The position numbers and the translations under genes are program-made. 41,659 bases of DNA from a candidate division KSB1 bacterium (GTDB taxonomy: Bacteria; Zhuqueibacterota; JdFR-76; DREG01): positions 1 to 41,659 of the forward strand of contig JADFJB010000023.1 of the NCBI GenBank assembly GCA_022566355.1, given 5' to 3'. Every line of letters begins with the position of its first letter. The stretch's first letter is position 1. The notes below the pieces were generated by a model that was given only the letters and a program-made list of their open reading frames with translations, made no database searches and was not told the DNA's origin. Shown in pieces: positions 1 to 36,999 of this stretch.

Positions 1-565
1 GCATGGCGTTTTCGATGGGCTTGACCATCTCCTGATAACGGTCCAGATGATAGAAGAGTTGCGCTTTCAGCATGAACGGTTCGGCTGACGGGTTCGTTTC
101 GAGAATGAACCACTTGTCCAGGGTTATCAGTGCCTCAGAATATTTCTCTTCCATGGTCAACAATTGCGCGACTGTGAAAGTTGTCTGCTTGGCCATCTGC
201 AGTTCGAGGCTTGGGATCCGGAGCAATTTCTCGTAGGTCGAGATCGCTTCCCTGAACTGATCCATGTTGTAGTGAATGAAACCAATGTAGTTCAGTACGT
301 TGGCCTGTTCGTATTCCGTGAGTTTGTCGGGGTTGTAGAGACGGTTGAGTAATTGCAGCGCGCCGCGATCGTTGTCATCTTCCAACATTTCCTGGGCTTT
401 CGTAATACGGTCATAGACTTCCTTGCTGACCGCCTGAGCTTGCCTGGTCTTGGTTTTGTCGTCTTTACTGGCGCGGCCGCTTTGCGCTGACGCATCGCCA
501 AAAGCCAATGTCCCGACAAGCACCACCAGGCACAGCTTTAGTAAGATTCCACGATGAATTTTCAT
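1..565 (-). CDS. TPR protein of TonB system, partial (C-terminus outside window)
   Basis: An ATG at 563-565 on the minus strand opens a frame that runs off the window start, giving 188 codons. It begins with a signal peptide (MKIHRGILLKLCLVVLVGTL..., probable cleavage after the DASAQ segment), then a charged stretch and TPR-like helices such as LNYIGFIHYNMDQFREAIST. It is the last visible gene of the exbB-exbD-exbD-tonB run and lies 66 bases after tonB. Gammaproteobacterial TonB2-type operons commonly end with a periplasmic TPR protein (TtpA-like), and this fits that position and GC content. A role in TonB-driven outer-membrane transport is inferred from that context. Base composition is GC-rich like tonB and unlike the genes beyond 2.4 kb. 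Confidence 0.8.
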   Translation of the reverse strand, partial: MKIHRGILLKLCLVVLVGTLAFGDASAQSGRASKDDKTKTRQAQAVSKEVYDRITKAQEMLEDDNDRGALQLLNRLYNPDKLTEYEQANVLNYIGFIHYNMDQFREAISTYEKLLRIPSLELQMAKQTTFTVAQLLTMEEKYSEALITLDKWFILETNPSAEPFMLKAQLFYHLDRYQEMVKPIENAM

Positions 566-631
566 ATCAAAAAGTATCCTTCTGGATAATTTCCCGCCAG
601 AGGTATTCGACTATTCTCAGTCTTACTATCG

Positions 632-1237
632 TCAGTCTTCAAGTATGAAGGTGATACGCGTCTTGACGCCGACCACTTCCACCGGAATGCCGTCGACAAC
701 ACGTGGTTTATACTTGAATTTCAGTACAGCGCGCGTCGCGGCGCGTTCAAACAGGCTGCTGGTTGACTGCAATACAATCGGATCTTTTACAGTTCCCGCC
801 GCGGTTACGGTAAAGGACATGTCGACAAAACCTTCCAACTCTCGTGTCAACGCTCGCGTCGGGTATACCGGCGCCACGCGCACGATTGGCAGATAATCGC
901 CCTCGGCGATATTCATGCCGCCTGGCCCACCGATATTGGTATCAGCGGATACTTGTGGCGGCCTAATATTAATGGTCGGCGCATTGGGGTCGATGTTATC
1001 AAAATCCTGCGGCGGCGTTTCCGGCGGGGTCTCGGGCGGCTTCGGCGGTTTCTCCGGCGTGAAATCAGCAGTATTCAGGTTTTCATTACGTTTGACGCGC
1101 ACGAATTCAAGCTTGTGCCGTTCGCGCGGGTCGGTCAGTGCCTGCTTACCCGATGCAATGAGCAATTGCATGACGAACAGCAAGCTCAGCGTTACAACCA
1201 TGCCTATCAAGATTGAAAATGCATAGCGGCTTTTCAT
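632..1237 (-). CDS. tonB: TonB family energy transducer
   Basis: 201 residues. One N-terminal membrane helix (about residues 7-29) is followed by a periplasmic spacer with a Pro-rich run (TPEKPPKPPETPPETPP, about 60-76). A C-terminal TonB domain follows from about residue 112, with the VAPVYPTRALTRELEGFVDM segment and the closing RAVLKFKYKPRVVDGIPVEV segment typical of the family. TonB spans the periplasm and passes proton-motive energy from ExbB/ExbD to outer-membrane receptors. The short Pro-rich spacer and the GDYLPIVRVAP...KYKPRVVDG signature resemble gammaproteobacterial TonB2 proteins rather than FCB TonBs (inference from remembered family sequences). It sits 47 bases downstream of the second exbD, in one transcription direction. 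Confidence 0.93.
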   Translation of the reverse strand: MKSRYAFSILIGMVVTLSLLFVMQLLIASGKQALTDPRERHKLEFVRVKRNENLNTADFTPEKPPKPPETPPETPPQDFDNIDPNAPTINIRPPQVSADTNIGGPGGMNIAEGDYLPIVRVAPVYPTRALTRELEGFVDMSFTVTAAGTVKDPIVLQSTSSLFERAATRAVLKFKYKPRVVDGIPVEVVGVKTRITFILED

Positions 1238-1284
1238 GGGCTTATTCTCCTTAGCGGTTTCAGCCGCCTCGTCTCCGTTAGTCG

Positions 1285-1695
1285 CTAGTTGTTGTCGGAA
1301 GCAATCGCAACGTTTTTAACGCCGGCGGCTTTTGCAGCTTCCAGGACGATGACCAGCATCTCATGCGTCGAGTCTTTGTCTGCCTGAATAACGATGGACC
1401 CTTTCGGGTTTTCGGAATGCAGACGCTCGATGACGCCGCGTACGGCGCGAGGCTCCCGTTCTTTACGGTCAATCCAAATCTCATCAGTACTACTGATCGC
1501 GATCAGTATGGAGGCATCTTCCTGAAACTCAGCTGTAACAGTGTCCGGGCGATCGACCTGGATACCCGCCTCCTTGATAAAGGTTGCTGTCACGATAAAG
1601 AAAATGAGCATGATGAACACGACATCAAGCATCGGTGTCAGGTTGATCTCCTCACCTTCATCTTCCTGCCCCATCGAACCATGGTGTTTTCGCAT
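1285..1695 (-). CDS. exbD: ExbD biopolymer transport protein (second copy)
   Basis: The longest frame opens at 1761, but the ATG at 1693-1695 is preferred: it gives 136 residues starting MRKHHGSMGQEDEGEEINLT, matching the neighbouring ExbD start residue for residue, and has an AGGACG-type ribosome site just upstream. The single helix carries the LTPMLDVVF motif with the conserved proton-path Asp at residue 24. The rest is the periplasmic ExbD domain (VIQADKDSTHEMLVIVLEAA). ExbD partners ExbB in the inner-membrane proton channel that drives TonB. Two tandem exbD genes suggest an ExbD heterodimer, which is inference. Only 25 bases separate it from the upstream exbD. Confidence 0.92.
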   Translation of the reverse strand: MRKHHGSMGQEDEGEEINLTPMLDVVFIMLIFFIVTATFIKEAGIQVDRPDTVTAEFQEDASILIAISSTDEIWIDRKEREPRAVRGVIERLHSENPKGSIVIQADKDSTHEMLVIVLEAAKAAGVKNVAIASDNN

Positions 1696-1720
1696 TACAT
1701 TCGTCCTATTGAGGTCCCGC

Positions 1721-2131
1721 TCAACGTTGATCCGCGATGGATATGTTGTAGACGCCAGCACTCCGGCTAGCGTCCATTATCGTCACGAGCATCTTATTGG
1801 TCGATTTCTTATGTGGCATGATCACGACCGACCCCTGCGGGTTCTCAGCATGCAGCCGTTGAATATTGGCACGCACCGCACGTGGGTCGATCAAACGACG
1901 ATCGATCCAGATCTCGTCGTTGGCGCGAATCTGCACAAGAATATTGGCGTCTTCCGGCTTGGTCTCAGTTACCGGAGCATCAGGGCGATTGACGTCGATT
2001 CCTGATTCCTTAATGAAAGATGCCGTTACGATAAAGAAGATCAGCATGATAAATACGACGTCGAGCATCGGCGTGAGGTTGATTTCTTCGCCCTCATCGG
2101 CCTGTCCCATCGAAAGATCAGTCTTACGCAT
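1721..2131 (-). CDS. exbD: ExbD biopolymer transport protein (first copy)
   Basis: 136 residues, start MRKTDLSMGQADEGEEINLT, one transmembrane helix with LTPMLDVVFIMLIFFIVTA and Asp24 in the proton path. The periplasmic domain includes NDEIWIDRRLIDPRAVRANI and the typical closing VTIMDASRSAGVYNISIA. It starts 10 bases after the exbB stop. It closely resembles the second ExbD in length and N-terminus, so the pair probably arose by tandem duplication. The wording of the motifs (FIKESGIDVNRPDA, RLHAENPQGSVVI) is close to gammaproteobacterial TonB2-type ExbDs as I remember them. Confidence 0.93.
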   Translation of the reverse strand: MRKTDLSMGQADEGEEINLTPMLDVVFIMLIFFIVTASFIKESGIDVNRPDAPVTETKPEDANILVQIRANDEIWIDRRLIDPRAVRANIQRLHAENPQGSVVIMPHKKSTNKMLVTIMDASRSAGVYNISIADQR

Positions 2132-2141
2132 GCATTAGTCC

Positions 2142-2732
2142 TTAGTGATCCATGGTGAGCGAGTCTTCCAGAAACTCCACTTCACGAGCCGCACGGCGGC
2201 TTATCAACGTTACCAATAGAACACCGGAAAGTGCTCCTACCATCCCCGCCATGGTCGGCACAGTTGCCTGGGATACGCCGGCGGCCATAGCGCGAACGTT
2301 GCCTGAACCTGAAACAGCCATGACCTGAAACACGCTGATCATTCCTGTTACCGTTCCCAAAAATCCGAGCAGGGGAGCGACAGCGGCAACAGTTCCCAGG
2401 GCGCTAAGATATTTTTCCAGGTGATAAATTTCCGATCTGGCGGCGTTTTCTAACGCTTCTTTGATCTCCTCATAAGATCTGTCATATTTTTCCAAAACTG
2501 CTTTTGTCAAAGAGGCAATTGGTCCTGGAGTTTGTTTGCAAGTCTTTAAGGCATCATCAAGTTTTCCACGCATGAGGAGGTTTTGGATTTGTAAAACAAA
2601 TGTTCTGGCGTTGAGTTTAATTTTTCTGAGAGTGATAAGCCGTTCGATAAATATTGCCAATGCTGCTAAAGAACAAAGGGAAATGAGAATCATAATCCAA
2701 CCGCCACGTGCTGCTATTTCAAAAAGAGTCAT
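2142..2732 (-). CDS. exbB: ExbB/TolQ/MotA proton channel protein, apparent hybrid
   Basis: 196 residues with three predicted helices (about 13-30, 112-133, 155-177), the ExbB topology. A clear GGAGG ribosome site precedes the ATG at 2730-2732. The N-terminal part (to about residue 115) reads like FCB-type ExbB. From the LLGFLGTVTGMI motif (residues 121-132) onward it reads like gammaproteobacterial ExbB2: SGSGNVRAMAAGVSQATVPT and MAGMVGALSGV, closing with REVEFLEDSLTMDH. The DNA composition switches at the same place (57% GC over 2161-2340, 41% over 2401-2580, hand counted). The family builds the inner-membrane pentamer around ExbD. Whether this hybrid is real or an assembly junction is open. 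Confidence 0.85.
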   Translation of the reverse strand: MTLFEIAARGGWIMILISLCSLAALAIFIERLITLRKIKLNARTFVLQIQNLLMRGKLDDALKTCKQTPGPIASLTKAVLEKYDRSYEEIKEALENAARSEIYHLEKYLSALGTVAAVAPLLGFLGTVTGMISVFQVMAVSGSGNVRAMAAGVSQATVPTMAGMVGALSGVLLVTLISRRAAREVEFLEDSLTMDH

Positions 2733-2817
2733 AAATTGCCTCCAAGTAAGGTGCTGTTATTTAACAAAATTCCAGCTGAATGCCAAATGATCGTTTTTCT
2801 GAGTTTCTTTAATGCGC

Positions 2818-4572
2818 TCAAAAAATGACTTTCAATCCTGAAAATATTTGAATACCATTCTCCGGGTAATTTTGCCAGATTTCGTATTTTTGATCAAGGA
2901 TATTTGTACTCAATATATAGAGTTCGAATTTATCCTTTTTGTAGTTAATCTTGGCATTCAATCGCAAAAAACTTTTACCGAGTAGCGGTTGTGAAAGGTT
3001 AAAAACTCGCGAACTTAAATAGTCCCCGGTAACTGAAGCAATGACATTGGTATATAAACGATATTCAAATTCGATCGGGAATTTAACGTCTTCCAGGTAT
3101 GGAATTTTTCTCTCGGCAGGAACCACCGGTAATGTATTACCAAAATCATCAATACTTGAGCCTGAAATCAAGATAGTGGATCGAAATCTGTACGGGGCAA
3201 GATTCCCATAACTAAACTCAAGCTTAAAAAATGACAGATGAGCTTTTGGAAAAGTCCGAATTCGAAAAAGTGTAAACAGGTCGTTATTGTCAGGTACCAT
3301 CCAGACTTGCAGATTTTCAATGTCCTGGTAGTTGTAGGATAAAGAAAGTGAAGATAGCGGATTCATTTGCCATTGCAAACCAACCCCGGCTGATGATTTG
3401 ATGTCTTCGATAGGAGAATCAGTAAGTTGCAGATCCGAAGCCGGATTAATCTCCAGCAATTGTTGGCGAGTGGTTAAGCGCCAAAACGACTTATAGAATC
3501 CTGAAAATTTTACTTTTGAACTGGCATTCCAGCTAAATTCAAAAACAGGATTAAAACGATTGTCTGAAATACCCAAGCTATCTAAATCATAAAACTGGTA
3601 ATCCAGACCTGCTCTTATGAAACCGTTTTGGTTGATTTGCCTGGCAACATTTAGGTTAAGGTTGGAAATTGAATTTATATAGCCTAAATTTGGAATGCCG
3701 ATGATTCGATTTATATTTGCTTCAATTTTGTTGGTATAAGTTTTAGCCTGAAAACTTATTTCCATATTCTTCCAAATCCGGATCAGTTTTGCGGAGAGCT
3801 CGCGATTTTTTTCCCGGTTATTGATTCGAGAAAGAGAATCTGGAAGCTGATCGATATCACTTTCAATCGGAGATTTTACTTGTGACAACCGTAATTCATA
3901 TTGTGTGGACTCATTAATGGCACCATTGTAGCCAACTCTAAATTGTGATTGATTCCATTCCCTTTTATGATCCACGGAACTAGCCCATAAACCATAATCA
4001 AAAGAGTGAAAACTACCTCCCGCATAGATCTTATTGCGAAAATCGAATTCGTAGGCGGCTGAAAAAGTGATCATCCAGTTTTCGAATTGACTGTTCTGAT
4101 ATTGACCGTCGCTTTTTTCGAACATTCCTTCAATGTTGAAACTGGTTTTTTTGAACTGCTGCCAATGATTTGCAGAAAGGTATGGGGAGTTGTAGGTTCC
4201 ATAGCGAAGTTCAACCTGGGTGCTACGATTTAAATTAGTAATAACCTGGTCTGGAATTTGGTCTTCATCGATTGAGTTTGGTTCGCTTTTTTGTTCACGA
4301 TTAATGTCAAGATTTAGAGGTAAGATTGCATTCGATTCCAGTTCAGTCCTTTTAGTAGATGGCACCCGAATGCTTCTATCTTTGCCGAAAATTAAAACCT
4401 CGGGTATTTCCAATCGATTCTGGTGTTGTTTTGTAGAATCAATTTCGGTTGATCTTGGCGGCTTAATGGGTTTAGGCTTGGGGATCTTCTTTTCTTGAAA
4501 AGCAAAACCATATTCAATGAAAAATAAACCAAACACCACAAGAAGAGGAAAAACTTTCGTTTTATTCAGCAT
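2818..4572 (-). CDS. Outer-membrane beta-barrel protein, TonB-receptor-like, no plug domain seen
   Basis: 584 residues. A signal peptide (MLNKTKVFPLLVVFGLFFIE...GFAF) is followed by a Lys/Pro-rich stretch (KKIPKPKPIKPPR, about 28-40). From about residue 120 there are alternating amphipathic strands with long polar loops, ending in NGIQIFSGLKVIF with a C-terminal Phe, the usual outer-membrane barrel signature. I do not see a recognisable TonB plug domain, so receptor function is inferred from the downstream exbB/exbD/tonB genes. Its ATG lies one base after the stop of the upstream TPR gene, so translation is probably coupled. An 85-base gap separates it from exbB. It could instead be a porin-like partner of the TPR protein. 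Confidence 0.75.
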   Translation of the reverse strand: MLNKTKVFPLLVVFGLFFIEYGFAFQEKKIPKPKPIKPPRSTEIDSTKQHQNRLEIPEVLIFGKDRSIRVPSTKRTELESNAILPLNLDINREQKSEPNSIDEDQIPDQVITNLNRSTQVELRYGTYNSPYLSANHWQQFKKTSFNIEGMFEKSDGQYQNSQFENWMITFSAAYEFDFRNKIYAGGSFHSFDYGLWASSVDHKREWNQSQFRVGYNGAINESTQYELRLSQVKSPIESDIDQLPDSLSRINNREKNRELSAKLIRIWKNMEISFQAKTYTNKIEANINRIIGIPNLGYINSISNLNLNVARQINQNGFIRAGLDYQFYDLDSLGISDNRFNPVFEFSWNASSKVKFSGFYKSFWRLTTRQQLLEINPASDLQLTDSPIEDIKSSAGVGLQWQMNPLSSLSLSYNYQDIENLQVWMVPDNNDLFTLFRIRTFPKAHLSFFKLEFSYGNLAPYRFRSTILISGSSIDDFGNTLPVVPAERKIPYLEDVKFPIEFEYRLYTNVIASVTGDYLSSRVFNLSQPLLGKSFLRLNAKINYKKDKFELYILSTNILDQKYEIWQNYPENGIQIFSGLKVIF

Positions 4573-4573
4573 A

Positions 4574-7500
4574 TTATTTATTTCCCGTAATTAATTCAAT
4601 ATGATCTCGAGCAAGAATAGCAAATTGTGTATCAGGAAAGTTTTGCAGGAGTGATCTGAATAATTTGATGGCTTCTGTTTTTTGATTCGCTTTCTCGTAG
4701 GATAGTCCAGCCCCATACACGCTTTGAACAACCCAATATGGATATTGTTGGAATAAATATTTCACCTTAAGGTAATTTAAACCGGCTTCCTGGAAATTCT
4801 CCCGGTTGTAAGCCAACTCACCTTTGAGGAATTGAGCTTCTGCGGCCAATTCATCATTGCGATTGTTTAATACTTCATCCACGTAAGTAATGCCATCTAT
4901 GTAGCTGTTTCGAGCCATGGCAACTCTGGCCAGCCCCAATTTTGCAAAGTCAGAATATTGCTCGGCCGGACTTTTAGATAGCATGGACCGATAGTGGTTC
5001 TCAGCCTGGAGTACTTGGTCTAAATTCAGAAGATTTTGACCAATTCTATAATCTGCATTTGGAGCAAAATTGGAATCCGGAAATTTTGAAAGAAGTTGAT
5101 TACAGTAGTTAATACTTTGCCTGAAATTCTGGCCCTCAAAAGTTATTTTAGCCAACTCGTTCAAAGCAATTGCGCTGGAAGAGGACAAAGGATATTCGCT
5201 AACCTGGCGTAGAAGAGCGCCCTCAACTTCTTGCTTATTACTAGATTTGCGATAAATCTCCGCTATCCAGTACCAGGAATTTGACGCTTGTTCTGAATCC
5301 GGATAATCCCGCATTATTTTTCTATAGGTGTCTATTGACTCTGTGAACTGGTTTAAATTAACAAACAATTCAGCCTTCCTCTTTAAGAATTCAGGCGCGG
5401 ACCCGGTTTCTTTAAGGAGGTTCATATAATGATCCACTACTTTGACAGCTTCTTTCGAATCGCCTTTTTGGATCATAGACCATTGGATACCACTGATTGC
5501 ATCCGGAAGTAAAGGACTTTTGGGATGTTTTTGCAGAAGAGCTTCATAAGACTGAATGGCCAATTCATAATTGCCGGCATTATAGTAGCAATCACCGATA
5601 GTATATAAAGCGTCATCGACAAATTCGCTTTCGGGGTACAGGTTTGATAATTTCCGAAATGCCAGCACGGCACGGTCGTAATCACCAAGCTGAAAATAAC
5701 TTCTACCTATCATCATCTGGGATTGTGGGGCACGGTCAGAATCCGGGTAATTAAGTATTAATTGGTTGAACTCGGTGATAGCCCGTGAGATTTTGCCTTG
5801 CTTGAAATAAGATTGTCCAATTTGGAGTTGAGCCTGTGCTTGATCGGTTACAGGAAGATATTCTAACGAAGAACGGTAAGAAGTAATAGCTTTTTCGTAG
5901 GCTTTCGAATTGAATAAAGCATCTCCTTTGCGAAAATTCAATTCCGCAAGCAGCCCTTTATCTTTGGATATTGTTATGCCTAGATCGAACTGTGCAACAG
6001 ATTCTCTAAAATCTTGTTCCTTCAATGAGATCCATCCCAGGCTGTAATAGGCGTCATCCACTAAATCCGATTTTGGAAAAGATTGAATAAGCCTTTGATA
6101 TTCCCTCTGCGCTTCCTGAAGTTTATGCAATTTTAGTTTGGATTCAGCCAGCCAAAATATGCCTTGATCGATAAACCGATTCTTAGAATTATTGAGTACG
6201 AATCGTTGCAAAATTTCTTCTGCTTCGGTGAATTCGTTCATATGAAATCGGCACCAACCAAGACGAAACGTAGCCTCCACCGCAATTGGGTTAAGCGGAT
6301 GTTGCTCTATGATTTGCTGATAAATACGTGCTGCTGTTTCAGTTTGATTCTGCGCAACTGCAATTTCACCAAGCATGAACAGGGAGTTCGCTCGCATTTT
6401 GGAGTTTTGATCCAAACTACTCAAAGCTTCAAAGATCCTTTGGGCTTCCGGGTAGTTTTTCTCATCAAACTCAAGAATTCCCATTTCATATTTTGCTTGT
6501 GTTGCGGTTGAATCCATTGGAAACTTAGTAACCAGGGTTGTAAATGTTTCTTTTGCTTTTGACCTATCTGATATCTTTAAAAATGATCTGGCAATTTGTA
6601 AATAACTTTTACTGGCGAGTTCATTTTCGGAGTAATTTGTAACCAAAAATTCAAAAGCGGCAATGGCTCTTAGCCAATTTTCTTGTTTAAAATAAGTCCA
6701 GCCCAAACCATAGTAGCTTCGTTCTACCCAGGCGCCATCTTTAAAATCGCGGGCCACTTTTTGGTACGATGTTACAGATTCATCGAGATGAGATAAGTGA
6801 TATTGTGATTCCGCAATAAAAAATTGAGCTTCAGAAGCCCGGTTGTTTTTAGGATATTTTCCCAAAGCTTGGTTCAAATAGTTTCCGGATTGGATAAACA
6901 AATTGGTTTTAAATGCAGAGAATCCCATATGAAATGAAATTTCTTCGGCCAGTTCACTTTCGGGAAAGTCATCCAATAATTTTTGGTAAACTTGAAAAGC
7001 TTTTTCTATTTCATCGTTCTGTTCGTAGAGCCAACCTATTGAGTAAAAAGCGAAATCCATATATAAGCTGTTAGGGTGGTACTGTATTAGGTTCGAAAAG
7101 GATTTTAACGCATCTTGCTTATTATTAAGTTTCAGGTAGCTTTCTCCCTGCCAGTAATAGGCTTGATCCATAAATTCCGAACTCGGAAATTGATTGGTGA
7201 AATTGTCGAATGTTTCCAAAGCCTCATTGAATTTATCGCTGCGAAATTGAGCTTCCCCCAATCGAAATAAAGCCCTTTCTTTAAATACTTTAATTGGCGC
7301 CCTGAACATAAATTGATTAAAAACTGTAATCGAATTTTTATAATCACCAATTTGGAAGAGTGATTCACCCAACATATAGGTGACTTCAGATCGATGGATG
7401 GATGAAGGATATTTGCGAAGATAACGTTCAAATTGTTCCTTTGCTACAGGATAAAGGCCGTCGTCAAATAAAGCTTTTGCAAATGAAAATTCTTTTTCAA

Positions 7501-7606
7501 TTTGCTTCGATTGTGAAGTTTGAATAGTTTGGGAAAACCCTGGTGTAGGATTGAAAATGAATAAATAAATTAAAACTAGAATCGAATATTTTAACATCTT
7601 ACCCAT
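4574..7606 (-). CDS. Giant periplasmic tetratricopeptide-repeat protein
   Basis: 1010 residues: signal peptide (MLKYSILVLIYLFIFNPTPGFSQ after the first three residues), then more than twenty 34-37-residue TPR/YbgF-like helix pairs. The recurring pattern is F-x-x-G-x-x-x-Y-x-x-A followed by 'YPxSxxxxxA' (for example YLRKYPSSIHRSEVTYMLGE and KHPKSPLLPDAISGIQWSM). AAGG lies six bases before the first ATG, which supports that start. It is the first gene of the minus-strand envelope operon and abuts the barrel protein. TPR arrays of this kind act as protein scaffolds in the periplasm or at the outer membrane. A role in assembling or gating the barrel encoded next is inference from the tight coupling. 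Confidence 0.85.
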   Translation of the reverse strand: MGKMLKYSILVLIYLFIFNPTPGFSQTIQTSQSKQIEKEFSFAKALFDDGLYPVAKEQFERYLRKYPSSIHRSEVTYMLGESLFQIGDYKNSITVFNQFMFRAPIKVFKERALFRLGEAQFRSDKFNEALETFDNFTNQFPSSEFMDQAYYWQGESYLKLNNKQDALKSFSNLIQYHPNSLYMDFAFYSIGWLYEQNDEIEKAFQVYQKLLDDFPESELAEEISFHMGFSAFKTNLFIQSGNYLNQALGKYPKNNRASEAQFFIAESQYHLSHLDESVTSYQKVARDFKDGAWVERSYYGLGWTYFKQENWLRAIAAFEFLVTNYSENELASKSYLQIARSFLKISDRSKAKETFTTLVTKFPMDSTATQAKYEMGILEFDEKNYPEAQRIFEALSSLDQNSKMRANSLFMLGEIAVAQNQTETAARIYQQIIEQHPLNPIAVEATFRLGWCRFHMNEFTEAEEILQRFVLNNSKNRFIDQGIFWLAESKLKLHKLQEAQREYQRLIQSFPKSDLVDDAYYSLGWISLKEQDFRESVAQFDLGITISKDKGLLAELNFRKGDALFNSKAYEKAITSYRSSLEYLPVTDQAQAQLQIGQSYFKQGKISRAITEFNQLILNYPDSDRAPQSQMMIGRSYFQLGDYDRAVLAFRKLSNLYPESEFVDDALYTIGDCYYNAGNYELAIQSYEALLQKHPKSPLLPDAISGIQWSMIQKGDSKEAVKVVDHYMNLLKETGSAPEFLKRKAELFVNLNQFTESIDTYRKIMRDYPDSEQASNSWYWIAEIYRKSSNKQEVEGALLRQVSEYPLSSSSAIALNELAKITFEGQNFRQSINYCNQLLSKFPDSNFAPNADYRIGQNLLNLDQVLQAENHYRSMLSKSPAEQYSDFAKLGLARVAMARNSYIDGITYVDEVLNNRNDELAAEAQFLKGELAYNRENFQEAGLNYLKVKYLFQQYPYWVVQSVYGAGLSYEKANQKTEAIKLFRSLLQNFPDTQFAILARDHIELITGNK

Positions 7607-7816
7607 GGGGTACCTTTTCTGGAATATTCTTCGATCACTTAATGTATGGCAACGAGTTGCATTAGATCTAAAACATCATATTATTGGGACGTAGATTCAA
7701 GGTAATGAGTTTAAATTAATTTTGCTAAGGTTATCGAATTTAATTAACGCCATAATTCTTTGCAAGTTTCAGATATGGTTGAAATTAAAATTGTAAAGAA
7801 CTAATGTAAATTTCTA

Positions 7817-24176: not shown

Positions 24177-26579
24177 ATGGTTTTTATGAAATTAAAAATT
24201 TCTTTTTCATTTCCTAATAGGGATTTTAAAGTTGGATTTCTGAGTACATTACTCTCTCTAATGCTAATAATGGGTTGTGGCGCTTATTTTAACACCTATT
24301 ACAATGCAAAGAAATTTTTTAATCAGGCAGAAAAAAAACGGATTGAGCGAGAGAAAAGTGCACAAGTTTCGGGAAATCAGAACAGAAGGTTGAATAGGTC
24401 TAAGATCCCGGAGTATGAAAGAGCGATTGAAAAGGGATCTAAAGTTTTACAATTTCATGCTAAAAGTAAATACGTGGATGATGCGCTTTTTTTAATCGGA
24501 CGATCCTTTTATCATACCTACGAATATCTTAAAGCCCGTCGTAAGTTCGATGAGTTAATTACAATTTTTCCGGAAGGTAAACTTGCTTCCAAATCAAAAT
24601 TATGGTTGGGAAAAACCCTCATTGAGCTTAAAGAATACGAAACTGCATTAACCGTTCTGAATGAATTGGTTTCTCAAAAAGTTGATAAAAATATTTCTGG
24701 TGAAGCACGGTTTTTACTTGGTGAGTTATATTTCAATAAAGAAGATTATCCTGCTGCAATAAAAGAATTTACAGACACAATTGATAAAGTCAGTAAAAAA
24801 TCTGACAAAGTCACAGCGCTGTCTAAAGCAAGTGAAGCATACATAAAGCTTCTAGATTACAACAAGGCTGCCCAAGTTTTACGTCGTGCATTGGACTTAA
24901 AACCGGAGTTGGAACAGAAGTATTTAGTCGAGTTGACCTATGCAAAAATATTGCGGCAACTTAAGGAATACGATCAAACATTATTGGTTTTTGATGCAAT
25001 GACCAAAGGAGCGCTTACCCGGAATGAAATGGCCAATGTCAGGCTTGAAATAGCGAACACATACATCGAAAGAGAAGAATGGGACAAAGCTAAGATTACT
25101 CTTGAGGAAATAGTTGTGGATTTTCCAAAATCAGAATTTGCCGTCAGCGCACTTTTTGAACTTGGTAAAATGTTTATCAAGAAGGACAATGATTTACAAC
25201 AGGCAAAGGTTTATTTCGAAGCGGCTAAGAAAAAAAATAAACGAAATGCTGTAACTGATAGTGTTAAGTTATGGCTGAAAAATGTCACCGAGTGGGATCA
25301 GATTAAGTTTGAAATTGAAATTTTGGAAACTGCTTATTATTCATTTGATTTTACAAATACTGATACGATAGGTGAATACATTGTAAATGAACAGGATGAA
25401 TCGGATGAATTTGCATTACAAAAGGCCCTTGCACAAAACCAGGCGCAAGTGAATTCAGACTCGATAAAACAGGATGCCAGTAATGATTCAACGAAGTCTT
25501 CGGAGATGGAGGATTTTTTGTCCCAGGAAATTTTATCAAGAATGGATGAAAAAGAAAAAATCAATCAACTGAAAAAGGATGATAAAAATATTAACGTTGT
25601 AGAGGGTAGTAAAAAACAAGCGCCAAATACGAATATTGTTAAAAAGAAGAAAGTATCAGTTCCAAAGAATTTTAATCAACTTGAAAATAAATTAATATCA
25701 ACCCATAACAAATTGGCAGAACTGTTTCTTTTTCAATTCGATCAGCCGGATTCTGCTTTAGGCCATTATGAATTCTTATCGATTAACTTTGATGATAATC
25801 AACAAGCGCCTCATTGGTTATTCATGCGTTCATCGTTGCAACAGAGAAAAGGGGCTAAAGATCTTGCCAATTCCCTATTCCAAACTATCATAGATAAATA
25901 TCCTAATACAAAGTATTCAGATGAAGCCAGCAAGATTCTTGGAAAAGAAGTACCAGAGAAAAAGTTGGATGTAGTTGAATTACTTTTTACCCAGGCTGAA
26001 GACCAATTATTCAAAATGAATGATGTGGATTCTTCCTTAAAGTTATATTACCGCATATCGGAAGATTACAAAGAATCTGAATTCGCCCCTAAGGCGGTTT
26101 ATGCTATTGCATGGATTAATGAATGGAAACTGTCTAATAATGATAAAGCATTGGAAATTTACGAGCAGTTGATAGAACGTTATCCGGATTCTGAGCTGAC
26201 TAAGCAAGTTAAAATTAAACTTAATGCATTAAAAATAGCTAAAAAAGAAGAAGAAAGAAAACGTAAAGAAGCCGCTGAGCAAATAGCTTCGGAATCTGCA
26301 GAAGAAGACACAACCAATTTAAAAATTGAGGGAATTGATTCGGAATCTACTGAAGAGGACACAACCAATTTAAAAATTGAAGAAATTGATTCGGAATCAA
26401 AAAAGATAGAAGAATTAGATGATATAGATCCAAGAATAAAAAAAACACGCTTTAAAAATAAAAACGAGGCTGAAAAAAATCCAAAAATAGAAACCGATCC
26501 ACGAAAAAAGAACTTAAAGAAAAAAGACGATAAAAAATCCAATCCGAAAAAGAAGGTTCAGCCGGAGCAACTTCTTTGA
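24177..26579 (+). CDS. Large TPR lipoprotein with charged, low-complexity tail
   Basis: 800 residues; ATG at 24177, with another at 24186 that may be the real start. The lipoprotein signal ends in LMLIMGC, followed by GAYFNTYYNAKKFFNQAEKK, a start seen in outer-membrane TPR lipoproteins of FCB bacteria (faintly like gliding/secretion lipoprotein SprE/PorW, weak). TPR units fill about residues 70-350 and again about 500-700, split by a Gln/Ser/Asp-rich linker. The last 100 residues are Lys/Glu-rich with a duplicated segment. Its TGA overlaps the pyrK TTG start, so it is co-translated with pyrimidine genes that have no obvious link to it. Confidence 0.82.
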   Translation: MVFMKLKISFSFPNRDFKVGFLSTLLSLMLIMGCGAYFNTYYNAKKFFNQAEKKRIEREKSAQVSGNQNRRLNRSKIPEYERAIEKGSKVLQFHAKSKYVDDALFLIGRSFYHTYEYLKARRKFDELITIFPEGKLASKSKLWLGKTLIELKEYETALTVLNELVSQKVDKNISGEARFLLGELYFNKEDYPAAIKEFTDTIDKVSKKSDKVTALSKASEAYIKLLDYNKAAQVLRRALDLKPELEQKYLVELTYAKILRQLKEYDQTLLVFDAMTKGALTRNEMANVRLEIANTYIEREEWDKAKITLEEIVVDFPKSEFAVSALFELGKMFIKKDNDLQQAKVYFEAAKKKNKRNAVTDSVKLWLKNVTEWDQIKFEIEILETAYYSFDFTNTDTIGEYIVNEQDESDEFALQKALAQNQAQVNSDSIKQDASNDSTKSSEMEDFLSQEILSRMDEKEKINQLKKDDKNINVVEGSKKQAPNTNIVKKKKVSVPKNFNQLENKLISTHNKLAELFLFQFDQPDSALGHYEFLSINFDDNQQAPHWLFMRSSLQQRKGAKDLANSLFQTIIDKYPNTKYSDEASKILGKEVPEKKLDVVELLFTQAEDQLFKMNDVDSSLKLYYRISEDYKESEFAPKAVYAIAWINEWKLSNNDKALEIYEQLIERYPDSELTKQVKIKLNALKIAKKEEERKRKEAAEQIASESAEEDTTNLKIEGIDSESTEEDTTNLKIEEIDSESKKIEELDDIDPRIKKTRFKNKNEAEKNPKIETDPRKKNLKKKDDKKSNPKKKVQPEQLL
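26289..26390 (+). repeat. 51-base tandem duplication inside the TPR lipoprotein gene
   Basis: Two copies (26289-26339 and 26340-26390) differ at few positions and encode SE-x-x-EEDTTNLKIE-x-IDS twice, with the start of a third copy after. Length is a multiple of three, so the frame is kept. This implies recent slippage or recombination in the disordered tail. Confidence 0.85.
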
Positions 26580-31949: not shown

Positions 31950-33170
31950 ATGGAAACTTCGGACAATTACCGCTATTTGCAAGAAGACCTTGCGAAAAGT
32001 GGATTAGACATTGAAATTATAAAGAGCAAACTGAAAGCTCAGCTAATCGAAACCCCGAGCTGGGGATACGGAAACAGCGGCACCCGGTTCAAGACTTTCG
32101 CCTGGCCTGGAGCCGCACGAAATATCTATGAAAAAATAGTTGATGCGGCATACGTGCACAAGCTCACTGGAATAGCGCCCTCAATTGCCCTTCATATTCC
32201 ATGGGATAAAACGGATGACTGGCAGTTCCTGGGTAAATTTGCCAGGGAAAAGGGATTAAACATCGGGGCGATCAATCCCAATGTGTTTCAAGATGACCAA
32301 TACAAGCTGGGGTCACTGTGCAGTCCTTTTGCCAAGTCGCGTGAACATGCCGTTGCCCACATGGTGGAATGCTGCGACATCATGAAAGCAACCGGCAGTG
32401 ATATTTTAAGCATCTGGCTGGCGGATGGGACCAACTATGCCGGGCAAGATGACCTTTCCCTTCGTAAAGAGCGACTGGAAGAAGGGCTGCGAACCATCTA
32501 TGCAAACCTGCCCACAAATAGCCGCATGCTCATTGAATATAAATTTTTTGAACCGGCGTTCTACCATAGCGATCTTGCCGACTGGGGTATGGCCTATGTG
32601 ATGGCCTGTAAATGCGGTAAGCAAGCAGAAGTCCTTGTCGATACCGGTCATCATGCCCAGGGCACCAATATTGGCCATATTGTTGCCTTTTTATTGAGCG
32701 AAGGGAAACTAGGTGGTTTTCATTTCAACGCCCGGAAATATGCTGACGACGATCTTATTGTGGGCACACAGAATCCTTACGAGCTCTTTGACATATTTAC
32801 ACAATTGGTTGTCAATGAACAGCGTGCGGCAAGCATAGCCTACATGATCGATCAAAGCCACAATATTGAACCAAAACTGGAAGCGATGATTTACAGTATT
32901 ATGAACTGCCAACAGGCATACGCCAAAGCGCTCATTGTCAATTACACTGCCTTGCGTGCTGCTCAGGAATCTGGCGATGTTCTGGGTGCCCATCGCTTAC
33001 ATACAGAAGCTTTTGAAACGGATGTGCGCCCCCTGTTAGCTCAGGTAAGAATAGAGATGGGATTGCATCCCGATCCGATTGAGGCTTATCGCATGGATGA
33101 TTATGAAGACAAAATTACTCGAGAACGCGGTACGGAAACTGGCAGCGGTGGGTATCCGACAGACCGCTAA
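31950..33170 (+). CDS. rhaI: L-rhamnose isomerase, catabolic (RhaI type)
   Basis: 406 residues, a xylose-isomerase-like TIM barrel of the RhaI type, not the E. coli RhaA type. Landmarks: [20 protein letters not shown] near the start, [15 protein letters not shown], metal ligands in [15 protein letters not shown] and [14 protein letters not shown], and [20 protein letters not shown]. It converts L-rhamnose to L-rhamnulose using divalent metal ions. It starts right after the regulator fragment and is followed by rhaB after 107 bases. GC is about 49% in a 60-base sample set from this cluster, well above that of the 24-29 kb genes. Confidence 0.92.
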
Positions 33171-33191
33171 CGTCATATCTTTGTTTCGGAC

Positions 33192-33208
33192 CACTCACTC
33201 ACTCACTC
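33192..33208 (+). repeat. CACT microsatellite between rhaI and rhaB
   Basis: Four tandem copies of a CACT unit, 22 bases after the rhaI stop. The gap from 33171 to 33277 has no other feature I can name. Confidence 0.7.
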
Positions 33209-33277
33209 AAGTTTCTTGAAAGTTACAAATGTTAAATCACTAAATTCCGTTTCCAAAACACACTGAAATAACACACA

Positions 33278-34723
33278 TTGAAAGCAATTTCTGTTCTAGG
33301 TATAGACCTTGGCGCTAAGTCTGGTCGGGTGATGGCTGTTCATTTAAACGATAATGGACTGGAACTCTCCTCGGTGCATCGTTTTTTAAACCGCCCGATT
33401 ATGATCCGCAATACTTTGCATTGGAATATTTTACAGCTCTGGCAGGATATCCAGGACGGCATTGATAAAGCAAAAGACCTGTCCTCCGCCAGCATCGGGG
33501 TAGACACGTGGGGTGTAGATTTTGCTCTTCTGGACAATCACGATCAGCTGTTGGGTATTCCAGTGCATTACCGCGATCATCGCACCGATGGCATAATGGA
33601 AAAAGCCTTCCGGAAGGTATCCCGGGAAGAAATTTTCCAACAAACGGGTATTCAGTTCATGCCTATCAATACCATTTATCAGTTGTATAGCATGGTCTTG
33701 AATGGATCAGCGTCACTTCGGCTTGCTCACACCTTTCTTACCATACCGGATTTGTTGAATTTTTGGCTAACGGGTGTAAAAACCTGTGAATTTACCAATG
33801 CCACCACCACCCAGCTATATAATCCGACAGTTGGTAACTGGGCAAAACCCGTCCTTGACAAGTTGGCCATATCTGAAACGATTTTCCCATCCATTACATT
33901 GCCGGGCACTCGACTCGGTAAATATCATGGTATACCCGTAATTGCCCCGGCCTGTCATGATACTGGTAGCGCGGTCGCTGCCATTCCGGCTAAAAATCCG
34001 GATTATGCTTATATCAGCAGTGGTACCTGGAGCCTTGTGGGTATCGAAATCGAAAACCCGATTATCAGTCCAGAAGCACTTGAGGCGAACTTGACCAATG
34101 AGGGTGGTGTAGAAAATACGTTTCGGTTGTTAAAAAATGTAATGGGATTGTGGATTTTCCAACAATGTCGCAATACTTTTACAAAAAAAGGTAAGTTACT
34201 AAGTTATCAACAACTTATGGCTTTAGCAAGCCAGGCGCTGCCATTACAACATTTCATCAACCCCAATGACCTGATGTTTTTACCACCCGGGGATCACCCT
34301 CAACTCATTCAGAGCTTCTGCAAGGAAACCGGGCAGTCGATTCCCGAAAACGAAGGAGCCATTATCCGCTGCGTTCTGGAAAGCCTGGCATTCTCCTATA
34401 GGAAGGTTTTAACGGATATACTGCAGATATCCGGACGTGAAGTAAACATCATTCACATTGTAGGGGGAGGATCAAAAAACGTACTGCTCTGCCAGATGAC
34501 CGCTAATGTCACGCATTTGCCGGTGGTTGCCGGGCCCGATGAAGCAACAGTGCTTGGCAATGCCTTGACGCAACTCATTGCGTTGGGTGAAATTAGTAAC
34601 ATTCATGAAGCGCGACAGTTGATTGCAAAAATGGGCGTTTTGAAGCATTACTTTAGTCATGACCATGACCAATGGGATAAGGCCTATGAGAGGTTTTTAA
34701 AAATTATTGCCAAACATAAGTAA
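33278..34723 (+). CDS. rhaB: Rhamnulokinase (FGGY family)
   Basis: 481 residues from a TTG start at 33278. FGGY motifs: GIDLGAKSGRVMAV (phosphate 1), SIGVDTWGVDFALLD, CHDTGSAVAAIPAKNPDYAY, YISSGTWSLVGIE, NVMGLWIFQQCR and HIVGGGSKNVLLCQMTANV. The YISSGTWSL and NVMGLW blocks are characteristic of RhaB. It phosphorylates L-rhamnulose at O1, using ATP. Its product is the substrate of the next gene, whose start lies 80 bases after the stop. Confidence 0.94.
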   Translation: MKAISVLGIDLGAKSGRVMAVHLNDNGLELSSVHRFLNRPIMIRNTLHWNILQLWQDIQDGIDKAKDLSSASIGVDTWGVDFALLDNHDQLLGIPVHYRDHRTDGIMEKAFRKVSREEIFQQTGIQFMPINTIYQLYSMVLNGSASLRLAHTFLTIPDLLNFWLTGVKTCEFTNATTTQLYNPTVGNWAKPVLDKLAISETIFPSITLPGTRLGKYHGIPVIAPACHDTGSAVAAIPAKNPDYAYISSGTWSLVGIEIENPIISPEALEANLTNEGGVENTFRLLKNVMGLWIFQQCRNTFTKKGKLLSYQQLMALASQALPLQHFINPNDLMFLPPGDHPQLIQSFCKETGQSIPENEGAIIRCVLESLAFSYRKVLTDILQISGREVNIIHIVGGGSKNVLLCQMTANVTHLPVVAGPDEATVLGNALTQLIALGEISNIHEARQLIAKMGVLKHYFSHDHDQWDKAYERFLKIIAKHK

Positions 34724-34803
34724 ATTAAAAGCCAAGTCGGAAAAAAGTGAAGCAATGTTGTTTGGGATCAAATGTGACTTATCTATACAATTTGGAGTGT
34801 GAA

Positions 34804-36999
34804 ATGTCAAACTTTAATAGAAACGATTTCCAACATGTGAATTACGCCTGGGATGACTCCCGGGTAGAGGCGCTAGATGCGGTTGAACATCTGGTTTATC
34901 GCTCAAACATTCTGGGCGACGACCTGCGAATTACCAATACTTGTGGCGGTAACACCTCATCAAAAATTTCCATGAAAGATCCTCTTACCGGTGAAGAGAT
35001 CGAAGTGTTATGGGTAAAGGGTTCCGGGGGAGATTTACGTACGTCTACCAAGGCGAATTTTGCTTCTCTTTACCTTAGTAAATTAAAGAACCTGAAAAGA
35101 ATCTATGATCAGGCTGCGGTTAAAGGTGTCAAAAGTCCCATTGAGGATCAGATGGTGGCCATTTATCCGCATACGGTTTTCAACCTGAATCCCCGCGCCA
35201 GTTCTATTGATACGCCTTTGCACGCCTTTGTTCCTTTTAAGCATGTCGATCACATGCACCCAAACTCCGTCATTGCCGTTGCCGCCTCCCGTGATGGGAA
35301 GCAATTAACACGGGAAATATACGGCGATGCAGTTGGCTGGATTGACTGGCAGCGTCCTGGCTTTGACCTGGGTATAAAGATCGAAGCGGCGTGTCGAGAG
35401 AATCCGCAACTGAAGGGTTTGGTAATGGGGCAGCACGGCCTGATCAACTGGTCCGATGACCATAAAGAATGCTATGAACTGACCCTGGAACTGATCGAAA
35501 TAGCGGCTCGGTACATCGAAGCCAATGACAGGGGAGAACAGACGTTTGGCGGTCAAAAATACCCTGTATTAAATAGCACAACGAGAGAAGATTTATTATT
35601 CAAATTGTTACCTCGTTTGCGCGGAATGGTGTCACAGGAGCAAAAGTTTATTTCTACGGTCCAATCGGATGATGCCATTTTGCAGTTTGTTAATAGTAAC
35701 GATGCGGAAAGGCTTGCGGAAATTGGTACCTCATGCCCGGATCATTTTTTACGCACAAAAATTAAACCGTTATATATCGACTGGAACCCCGCAACTGAGA
35801 ATGTTGACGAGCTGTTAAAGCAATTCCATACCGGTTTAGTTCGTTATCGGGAAGATTATATTGCATACTATAAAGCCTGCAAGTATCCCGACTCTCCCCT
35901 GATGCGAAATCCCAACCCCACCGTGATACTAATCCCTGGGTTGGGCATGATCACCTGGGGAAAGAACAAAAGTGAGTCACGGGTGACGGCCGAATTTTAC
36001 AATTGCGCCGTGGAAGTCATGCGTGGCGCGGAAGCGATTAGCGAATACGTTGCTTTACCACGACAGGAAGCTTTTGACATCGAATACTGGCTACTCGAAG
36101 AAGCCAAATTGAAACGGATGCCCCCGGCAAAAGAATTTGCGCACGATGTTGTTGTGGTTATCGGGGCCGGAAGTGGTATAGGCAATGCCACCGCGAATTG
36201 CGTTGCCAAATACGGCGCACATGTGGTCTGTGCAGATCTGGATGGTGATGCAGCCGTGCAAACAGCAAAAGAACTCACCGATATTTACGGATTGGGCATT
36301 GGAGTTGCGGGTAGCGGGATTTCCACCTGCGGACCAGCCATTGGTTTATCCGTAGATATCACAAACCGGGAAAGTATCCGGAAACTGTTTAAGGATACGA
36401 TACTTGCTTATGGCGGCATCGATCATGTGATTATCACTGCGGGCATTTTTGTACCACCCTCAAACGAAGGCAGCATACCAGATGAGATGTGGGGTAAAAC
36501 CTTTGACGTCAACGTAATCGGTTGTTATTTCGTTGCCGATGAAGCCCAGAAAATCTGGAATTCACAAAGATTGAAAGGCAGCATGGTAATTACTACCAGC
36601 GTTAATGCCGCCATTTCTAAAGAAGGATCTATTGCCTACGATGTCAGCAAAGCGGCAGCCAACCATCTGGTGCGAGAATTGGCTATTGAAATGGCGCCCA
36701 ATATTCGGGTCAACGGACTTGCGCCGGCAACTGTCCTACATGGTAGCAATATGTTTCCCCGTGATCGTGTTATCAGTTCTTTGGTAAAATATGAAATTCC
36801 ATTTTCAGAAACGGAATCCACTGAAACACTGCGCGACAAGTTGGCCAAATATTATGCTCAACGAACCCTAATTAAATCACCGGTCACAATGGAAGATCAG
36901 GCAGAAGTAGCCTGTCTGTTAATCAGCAATAAATTCAGTAAAACCACCGGTCAGATTATTAGCGTGGATGGGGGCTTGCATGAGGCGTTTTTAAGGTAG
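34804..36999 (+). CDS. rhaD: Rhamnulose-1-phosphate aldolase / lactaldehyde dehydrogenase fusion
   Basis: 731 residues from the ATG at 34804, which has GGAG six bases upstream; the frame extends to a GTG at 34747 but that lacks a ribosome site. The N-terminal half (about 1-430) is a class II aldolase: TCGGNTSSKIS, HVDHMHPNSVIAVAA (zinc His residues) and LVMGQHGLINWSDD. The C-terminal half (about 445-731) is a short-chain dehydrogenase: VIGAGSGIGNATANC (NAD site), TTSVNAAIS and YDVSKAAANH (Tyr-x3-Lys). It splits rhamnulose-1-phosphate into DHAP and L-lactaldehyde and then oxidises the aldehyde, so the pathway ends in one protein. No rhamnose transporter follows. Confidence 0.94.
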   Translation: MSNFNRNDFQHVNYAWDDSRVEALDAVEHLVYRSNILGDDLRITNTCGGNTSSKISMKDPLTGEEIEVLWVKGSGGDLRTSTKANFASLYLSKLKNLKRIYDQAAVKGVKSPIEDQMVAIYPHTVFNLNPRASSIDTPLHAFVPFKHVDHMHPNSVIAVAASRDGKQLTREIYGDAVGWIDWQRPGFDLGIKIEAACRENPQLKGLVMGQHGLINWSDDHKECYELTLELIEIAARYIEANDRGEQTFGGQKYPVLNSTTREDLLFKLLPRLRGMVSQEQKFISTVQSDDAILQFVNSNDAERLAEIGTSCPDHFLRTKIKPLYIDWNPATENVDELLKQFHTGLVRYREDYIAYYKACKYPDSPLMRNPNPTVILIPGLGMITWGKNKSESRVTAEFYNCAVEVMRGAEAISEYVALPRQEAFDIEYWLLEEAKLKRMPPAKEFAHDVVVVIGAGSGIGNATANCVAKYGAHVVCADLDGDAAVQTAKELTDIYGLGIGVAGSGISTCGPAIGLSVDITNRESIRKLFKDTILAYGGIDHVIITAGIFVPPSNEGSIPDEMWGKTFDVNVIGCYFVADEAQKIWNSQRLKGSMVITTSVNAAISKEGSIAYDVSKAAANHLVRELAIEMAPNIRVNGLAPATVLHGSNMFPRDRVISSLVKYEIPFSETESTETLRDKLAKYYAQRTLIKSPVTMEDQAEVACLLISNKFSKTTGQIISVDGGLHEAFLR

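Follow-up and report, generated by a model that had tools for sequence, protein, structure and literature searches.

A hybrid exbB reading frame at a contig end of a candidate division KSB1 genome is most probably an assembly chimera

The window analyzed here comprises 41,659 nucleotides, the whole of contig JADFJB010000023.1 (C23) of a candidate division KSB1 bacterium, and carries near its beginning an exbB reading frame whose two ends resemble different groups of bacteria. The question raised by this locus is whether the frame is a hybrid gene that exists in a living organism or whether two genomes were put together by an assembler. A sequence-only reading had offered both options, a real gene conversion and a joining of two genomes at a conserved stretch. 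Our comparisons uphold the latter and not the former, and we place the probability that the hybrid is an assembly chimera at the contig end, with two genomes joined, at about 96%.

Two origins within the exbB reading frame

The reading frame and its parts are listed here by window position. L043 denotes JACZTO010000016.1 (isolate B13T1B5), a MAG contig labelled Proteobacteria and placed near Woeseiaceae by its nearest matches.

2142..2732, reverse strand: apparent hybrid exbB frame, 196 aa, of two origins
2358..2732, reverse strand: 5′ part of exbB from the host (residues 1 to about 125), with 78 to 79% identity to same-family orthologues over residues 1-112
2335..2357, reverse strand: join zone, 23 bases (CTGATCATTCCTGTTACCGTTCC), encoding part of GTVTGMI and identical in L043

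The frame matched the Pfam profile MotA_ExbB (PF01618) at 88.4 bits against a curated cut-off of 22.9, a match that is uninformative on whether the frame is real because both parent genes belong to the MotA-TolQ-ExbB family. ExbB homologues were present in 39 of the 39 nearest genomes searched, with the best two coming from the host's own family. Compared with the exbB products of the same-family loci L007 and L008, identity was 79% and 78% over residues 1-112, 95% and 100% over the middle 19 residues, and 35% and 22% over the last 60 or so. Such a drop is unlike an ordinary gene and indicates that the frame has two origins. Over residues 132-196 the protein matches L043 at 100%, and this part occurs in 73 of 80 Woeseiaceae-type loci; residues 1-112 were absent from all 80 of these loci. 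The change of origin inside the frame, first suggested from the letters of the DNA, is therefore borne out, with residues 1-112 of host type, residues 132-196 those of L043, and the best matches of the two halves, compared separately, differing in lineage. The lineage labels proposed earlier were roughly right, since the foreign side is gammaproteobacterial (Woeseiaceae by record titles) and the 5′ half matches the host's phylum. The switch point, which had been set at about residue 115, does lie inside exbB but slightly later in the protein, as LLGFLG is still of host type and GTVTGMI holds the change.

At the DNA level, the match to L043 ends at 2357 and similarity to host relatives starts at 2336-2337 (G001 and G002) or 2328 (G006), which places the switch at about 2335-2357. 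The host-side relative L009 (G006) has 20 of the 23 join-zone bases in an unbroken run, and, assuming ATGATC or ATGATCAG in the host at 2335-2357, the shared stretch would amount to 21 to 23 bases. The join is in frame, at aligned codons of the motif. A join on shared coding bases is in frame automatically, and homologous recombination would give the same result. Within window positions 2300-7700, the Woeseiaceae MAG has only 58 bases in common with the contig (2300-2357), and among 60 genomes centered on that MAG no match extended past base 2400.

Base composition changes at the same place. The GC values counted by hand in the sequence-only reading proved exact on recount, with 103 of 180 bases (57.2%) over 2161-2340, 34 of 60 over 2341-2400, and 74 of 180 (41.1%) over 2401-2580. 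Over a longer range, GC is 51.9% for 1-2336 versus 38.5% for 2358-7606, and third-position GC is 0.58 to 0.66 in genes below 2336 and 0.35 to 0.36 both in genes above 2358 and on a second host contig, C56, described below. A tetranucleotide comparison, which had also been proposed, placed 1-2350 nearer the L043 flanks (distance 0.240) than the host (0.519), and none of 96 host windows was nearer the L043 flanks than the host. The correlation of tetranucleotide z-scores hardly discriminates at a length of 2.35 kb (0.41 with the host and 0.47 with the gammaproteobacterium).

A Woeseiaceae-type tip on the contig

The region beyond the join contains the following features.

1..2336, reverse strand: most likely foreign tip of Woeseiaceae DNA, with exbB2 (3′ end), exbD in two copies, tonB and a truncated TPR gene; 98.2% to L043 over 1-2357
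1721..2131, reverse strand: Woeseiaceae exbD, first copy; ExbD Pfam match; 99% to L043
1285..1707, reverse strand: Woeseiaceae exbD, second copy; ExbD Pfam match; 96% to L043
632..1237, reverse strand: Woeseiaceae tonB; TonB_C Pfam match; 97% to L043
2..565, reverse strand: Woeseiaceae TPR gene truncated at the contig end; 95% to the first 188 residues of a 451-aa L043 gene

Because the window covers C23 from end to end, the foreign 2.3 kb form a tip beginning at base 1 of the contig. Positions 1-2357 match L043 with 42 differences, and this identity halts abruptly at 2357; from about 2390 on, the two agree at only 11 to 15 of 60 positions. The next best genome for the tip reached 76% identity. 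With the TonB protein (632-1237) as query, a scan of named genomes led to Woeseiaceae and other gammaproteobacterial MAGs, among which L043 stands out. The earlier view that the genes beyond exbB (two exbD, tonB and TPR) are gammaproteobacterial-like is thus confirmed at 95 to 99% to L043. In L043 itself, the exbB gene is complete (175 aa), its N-terminal half differs, and genes of 457 aa (ExbB-like) and 264 aa come before it. The rest of this 16.6-kb locus was not found in the host genome, where the sole other match was weak (270 bases at 65%), and a search of a plasmid collection at near identity gave no match.

Bases 1-2336, or to 2357 for safety, are most likely foreign to this organism. 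The proposal that 1-2400 belongs to another organism thus stands for 1 to about 2340, which is Woeseiaceae DNA, and not beyond, as similarity to the host's relatives already begins at 2328-2337. The outermost bases also differ from the remainder of the tip: positions 1-88 hold 15 of the 42 mismatches to L043, against about one per 85 bases elsewhere, and the contig end may mix strains there.

The remaining half of the host operon

On the other side of the join the genes are those of the host, and their continuation lies on C56.

4574..7606, reverse strand: host TPR protein, 1010 aa, first native operon gene; 57% and 47% to G001 and G002
2818..4572, reverse strand: host 584-aa gene in front of exbB; 50% and 34% to the same-place genes of G001 and G002
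C56, 27172-27303: ExbB piece; 66% identity to G001
C56, 26787-27179: ExbD; 77% identity to G001
C56, 25823-26575: TonB; 57% identity to G001

The 584-aa product gave no Pfam match; it is probably an outer-membrane, TonB-dependent-receptor-like protein. The gene order in G001 is continuous, with an Ig-like protein, TPR protein, outer-membrane protein, exbB, exbD and tonB, and G002 has the same order. When the host genome was queried with the C-terminal part of ExbB, the ExbD and the TonB of G001, all three matched in a row on C56, a contig of 27347 bases whose end falls inside exbB and whose GC in the first kilobase from that end, 37 to 39%, is host-like. An assembly error is expected to leave the host's true exbB 3′ half as a leftover, and the end of C56 carries an exbB 3′ half. 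The first part of the operon on C23 and the last part on C56 together give the operon order of the relatives, with the break within the same gene.

No overlap longer than 9 bases was found between the C56 end and the exbB of the window, so the two contigs are not joinable by overlap; the native exbB gap between them is estimated at 60 to 120 bases. About 60 bases at the tip of C56 (C56:27283-27347, the end of L143) align to no relative's exbB, and the bases beyond them do. These odd bases had no convincing match elsewhere in the host genome, and the C56 tip may itself be misassembled.

Assembly or recombination

The explanation that we favor involves a low-GC host with an ordinary operon (TPR, outer-membrane protein, exbB, exbD and tonB) and a Woeseiaceae gammaproteobacterium, probably in the same sample, with its own exbB2, exbD, exbD, tonB and TPR genes. 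Both exbB genes would code for the nearly invariant LGTVTGMI, where 21 to 23 identical bases are possible. There the assembler would have passed from the 5′ half of the host gene into the 3′ half of the Woeseiaceae gene and continued for 2.3 kb into the Woeseiaceae genome, stranding the host's real exbB 3′ half as the end of C56. The likeliest cause would be a de Bruijn graph join, for which 21 shared bases could suffice. The isolate name of L043 contains T1B5, a site code that also appears in a Challenger Deep sediment study that used SPAdes 3.13 with k = 21 to 127 (PMC8938466). We infer that a comparable assembly yielded the host genome, that it contained both organisms and that a short shared k-mer caused the join. 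The two sides of C23 match two organisms with a sharp boundary, L043 at 98.2% up to 2357 and the host family above about 2336, and the native continuation is found elsewhere in the assembly, on C56, broken at the same place.

A real recombination, in which Woeseiaceae DNA entered in frame at the exbB motif to create a hybrid ExbB followed by foreign exbD, exbD, tonB and TPR genes, would account for the intact open frame, the join at an aligned motif position and the continuity of the foreign tip with the contig in the deposited sequence. It also has the old exbB 3′ half, exbD and tonB left elsewhere as a remnant, and the lack of overlap between C23 and C56, the 60 to 120 missing bases and the odd C56 tip leave it a small probability. 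However, the foreign segment has host DNA on one side only and on the other reaches the end of the contig, the host genome contains nothing more of the L043 locus, and the native 3′ half breaks off within this same gene where C56 ends, which is what a broken path in the assembly would produce. Neither the 39 host relatives, all from other genera, nor the 60 genomes related to the Woeseiaceae MAG showed the hybrid, and 98% identity to one MAG would demand a very recent event between distant phyla. We therefore regard recombination as very improbable, and the new chimeric energy transducer envisaged from sequence alone is unsupported. Were there such a recent transfer, a prospect to which we give little weight, a working hybrid TonB motor would be driving foreign ExbD and TonB.

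That C23 is Woeseiaceae DNA throughout, with the genes above 2400 as the transferred part, is scarcely credible. Contiguity of the contig alone speaks for it, but those genes agree with the host's family both in sequence identity and in arrangement, and at that place the Woeseiaceae MAG and related genomes retain an exbB 5′ half of their own and have no host operon.

Consequences for the genome record and other features of the contig

If the chimera is left in place, the database records of this lineage would gain a spurious hybrid ExbB along with four genes of Woeseiaceae, and the tip could pass for gene transfer. The genome is rated 98.5% complete and 0.21% contaminated, and the chimera is invisible in both figures. 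The remedy is to trim bases 1 to about 2336 (2357 for safety) and to treat C23 and C56 as neighbors across exbB.

Two further features were observed elsewhere on the contig. An island of about 46% GC lies at 31950-36999 in a host contig of about 36%. Its products are an FGGY sugar kinase, a fusion of aldolase-II and short-chain dehydrogenase, and a protein of 406 aa that matched no Pfam family at 1e-8. This gene set resembles deoxy-sugar catabolism, and the tetranucleotide use of the island is nearer the host than the gammaproteobacterium. A 51-base tandem repeat (26281-26398; 2.3 copies, 17 codons) is located inside or near the end of an 800-aa TPR gene at 24177-26579.

Comparison with known systems

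Inter-species chimeric contigs in MAGs, whose joins fall on short sequences common to two genomes, show the same double origin, sharp identity step, join at a conserved motif, foreign contig end and native continuation at another end. Nothing essential differs here, although an in-frame join that mimics a hybrid protein is unusual. The Woeseiaceae exbB2-exbD-exbD-tonB-TPR cluster, which we take to be of TonB2 type, has the same gene order as the tip, and its L043 version and window 1-2357 share 98.2% identity; the L043 exbB is complete, at 175 aa with its own N-terminal half, whereas the window has the 3′ part only. The host-family operon is matched in order and identity by 2358-7606 over its first three genes. 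The relatives have a full-length exbB (207 to 210 aa) with a single exbD and a tonB of 264 to 265 aa behind it; in this genome the corresponding part is found on C56.
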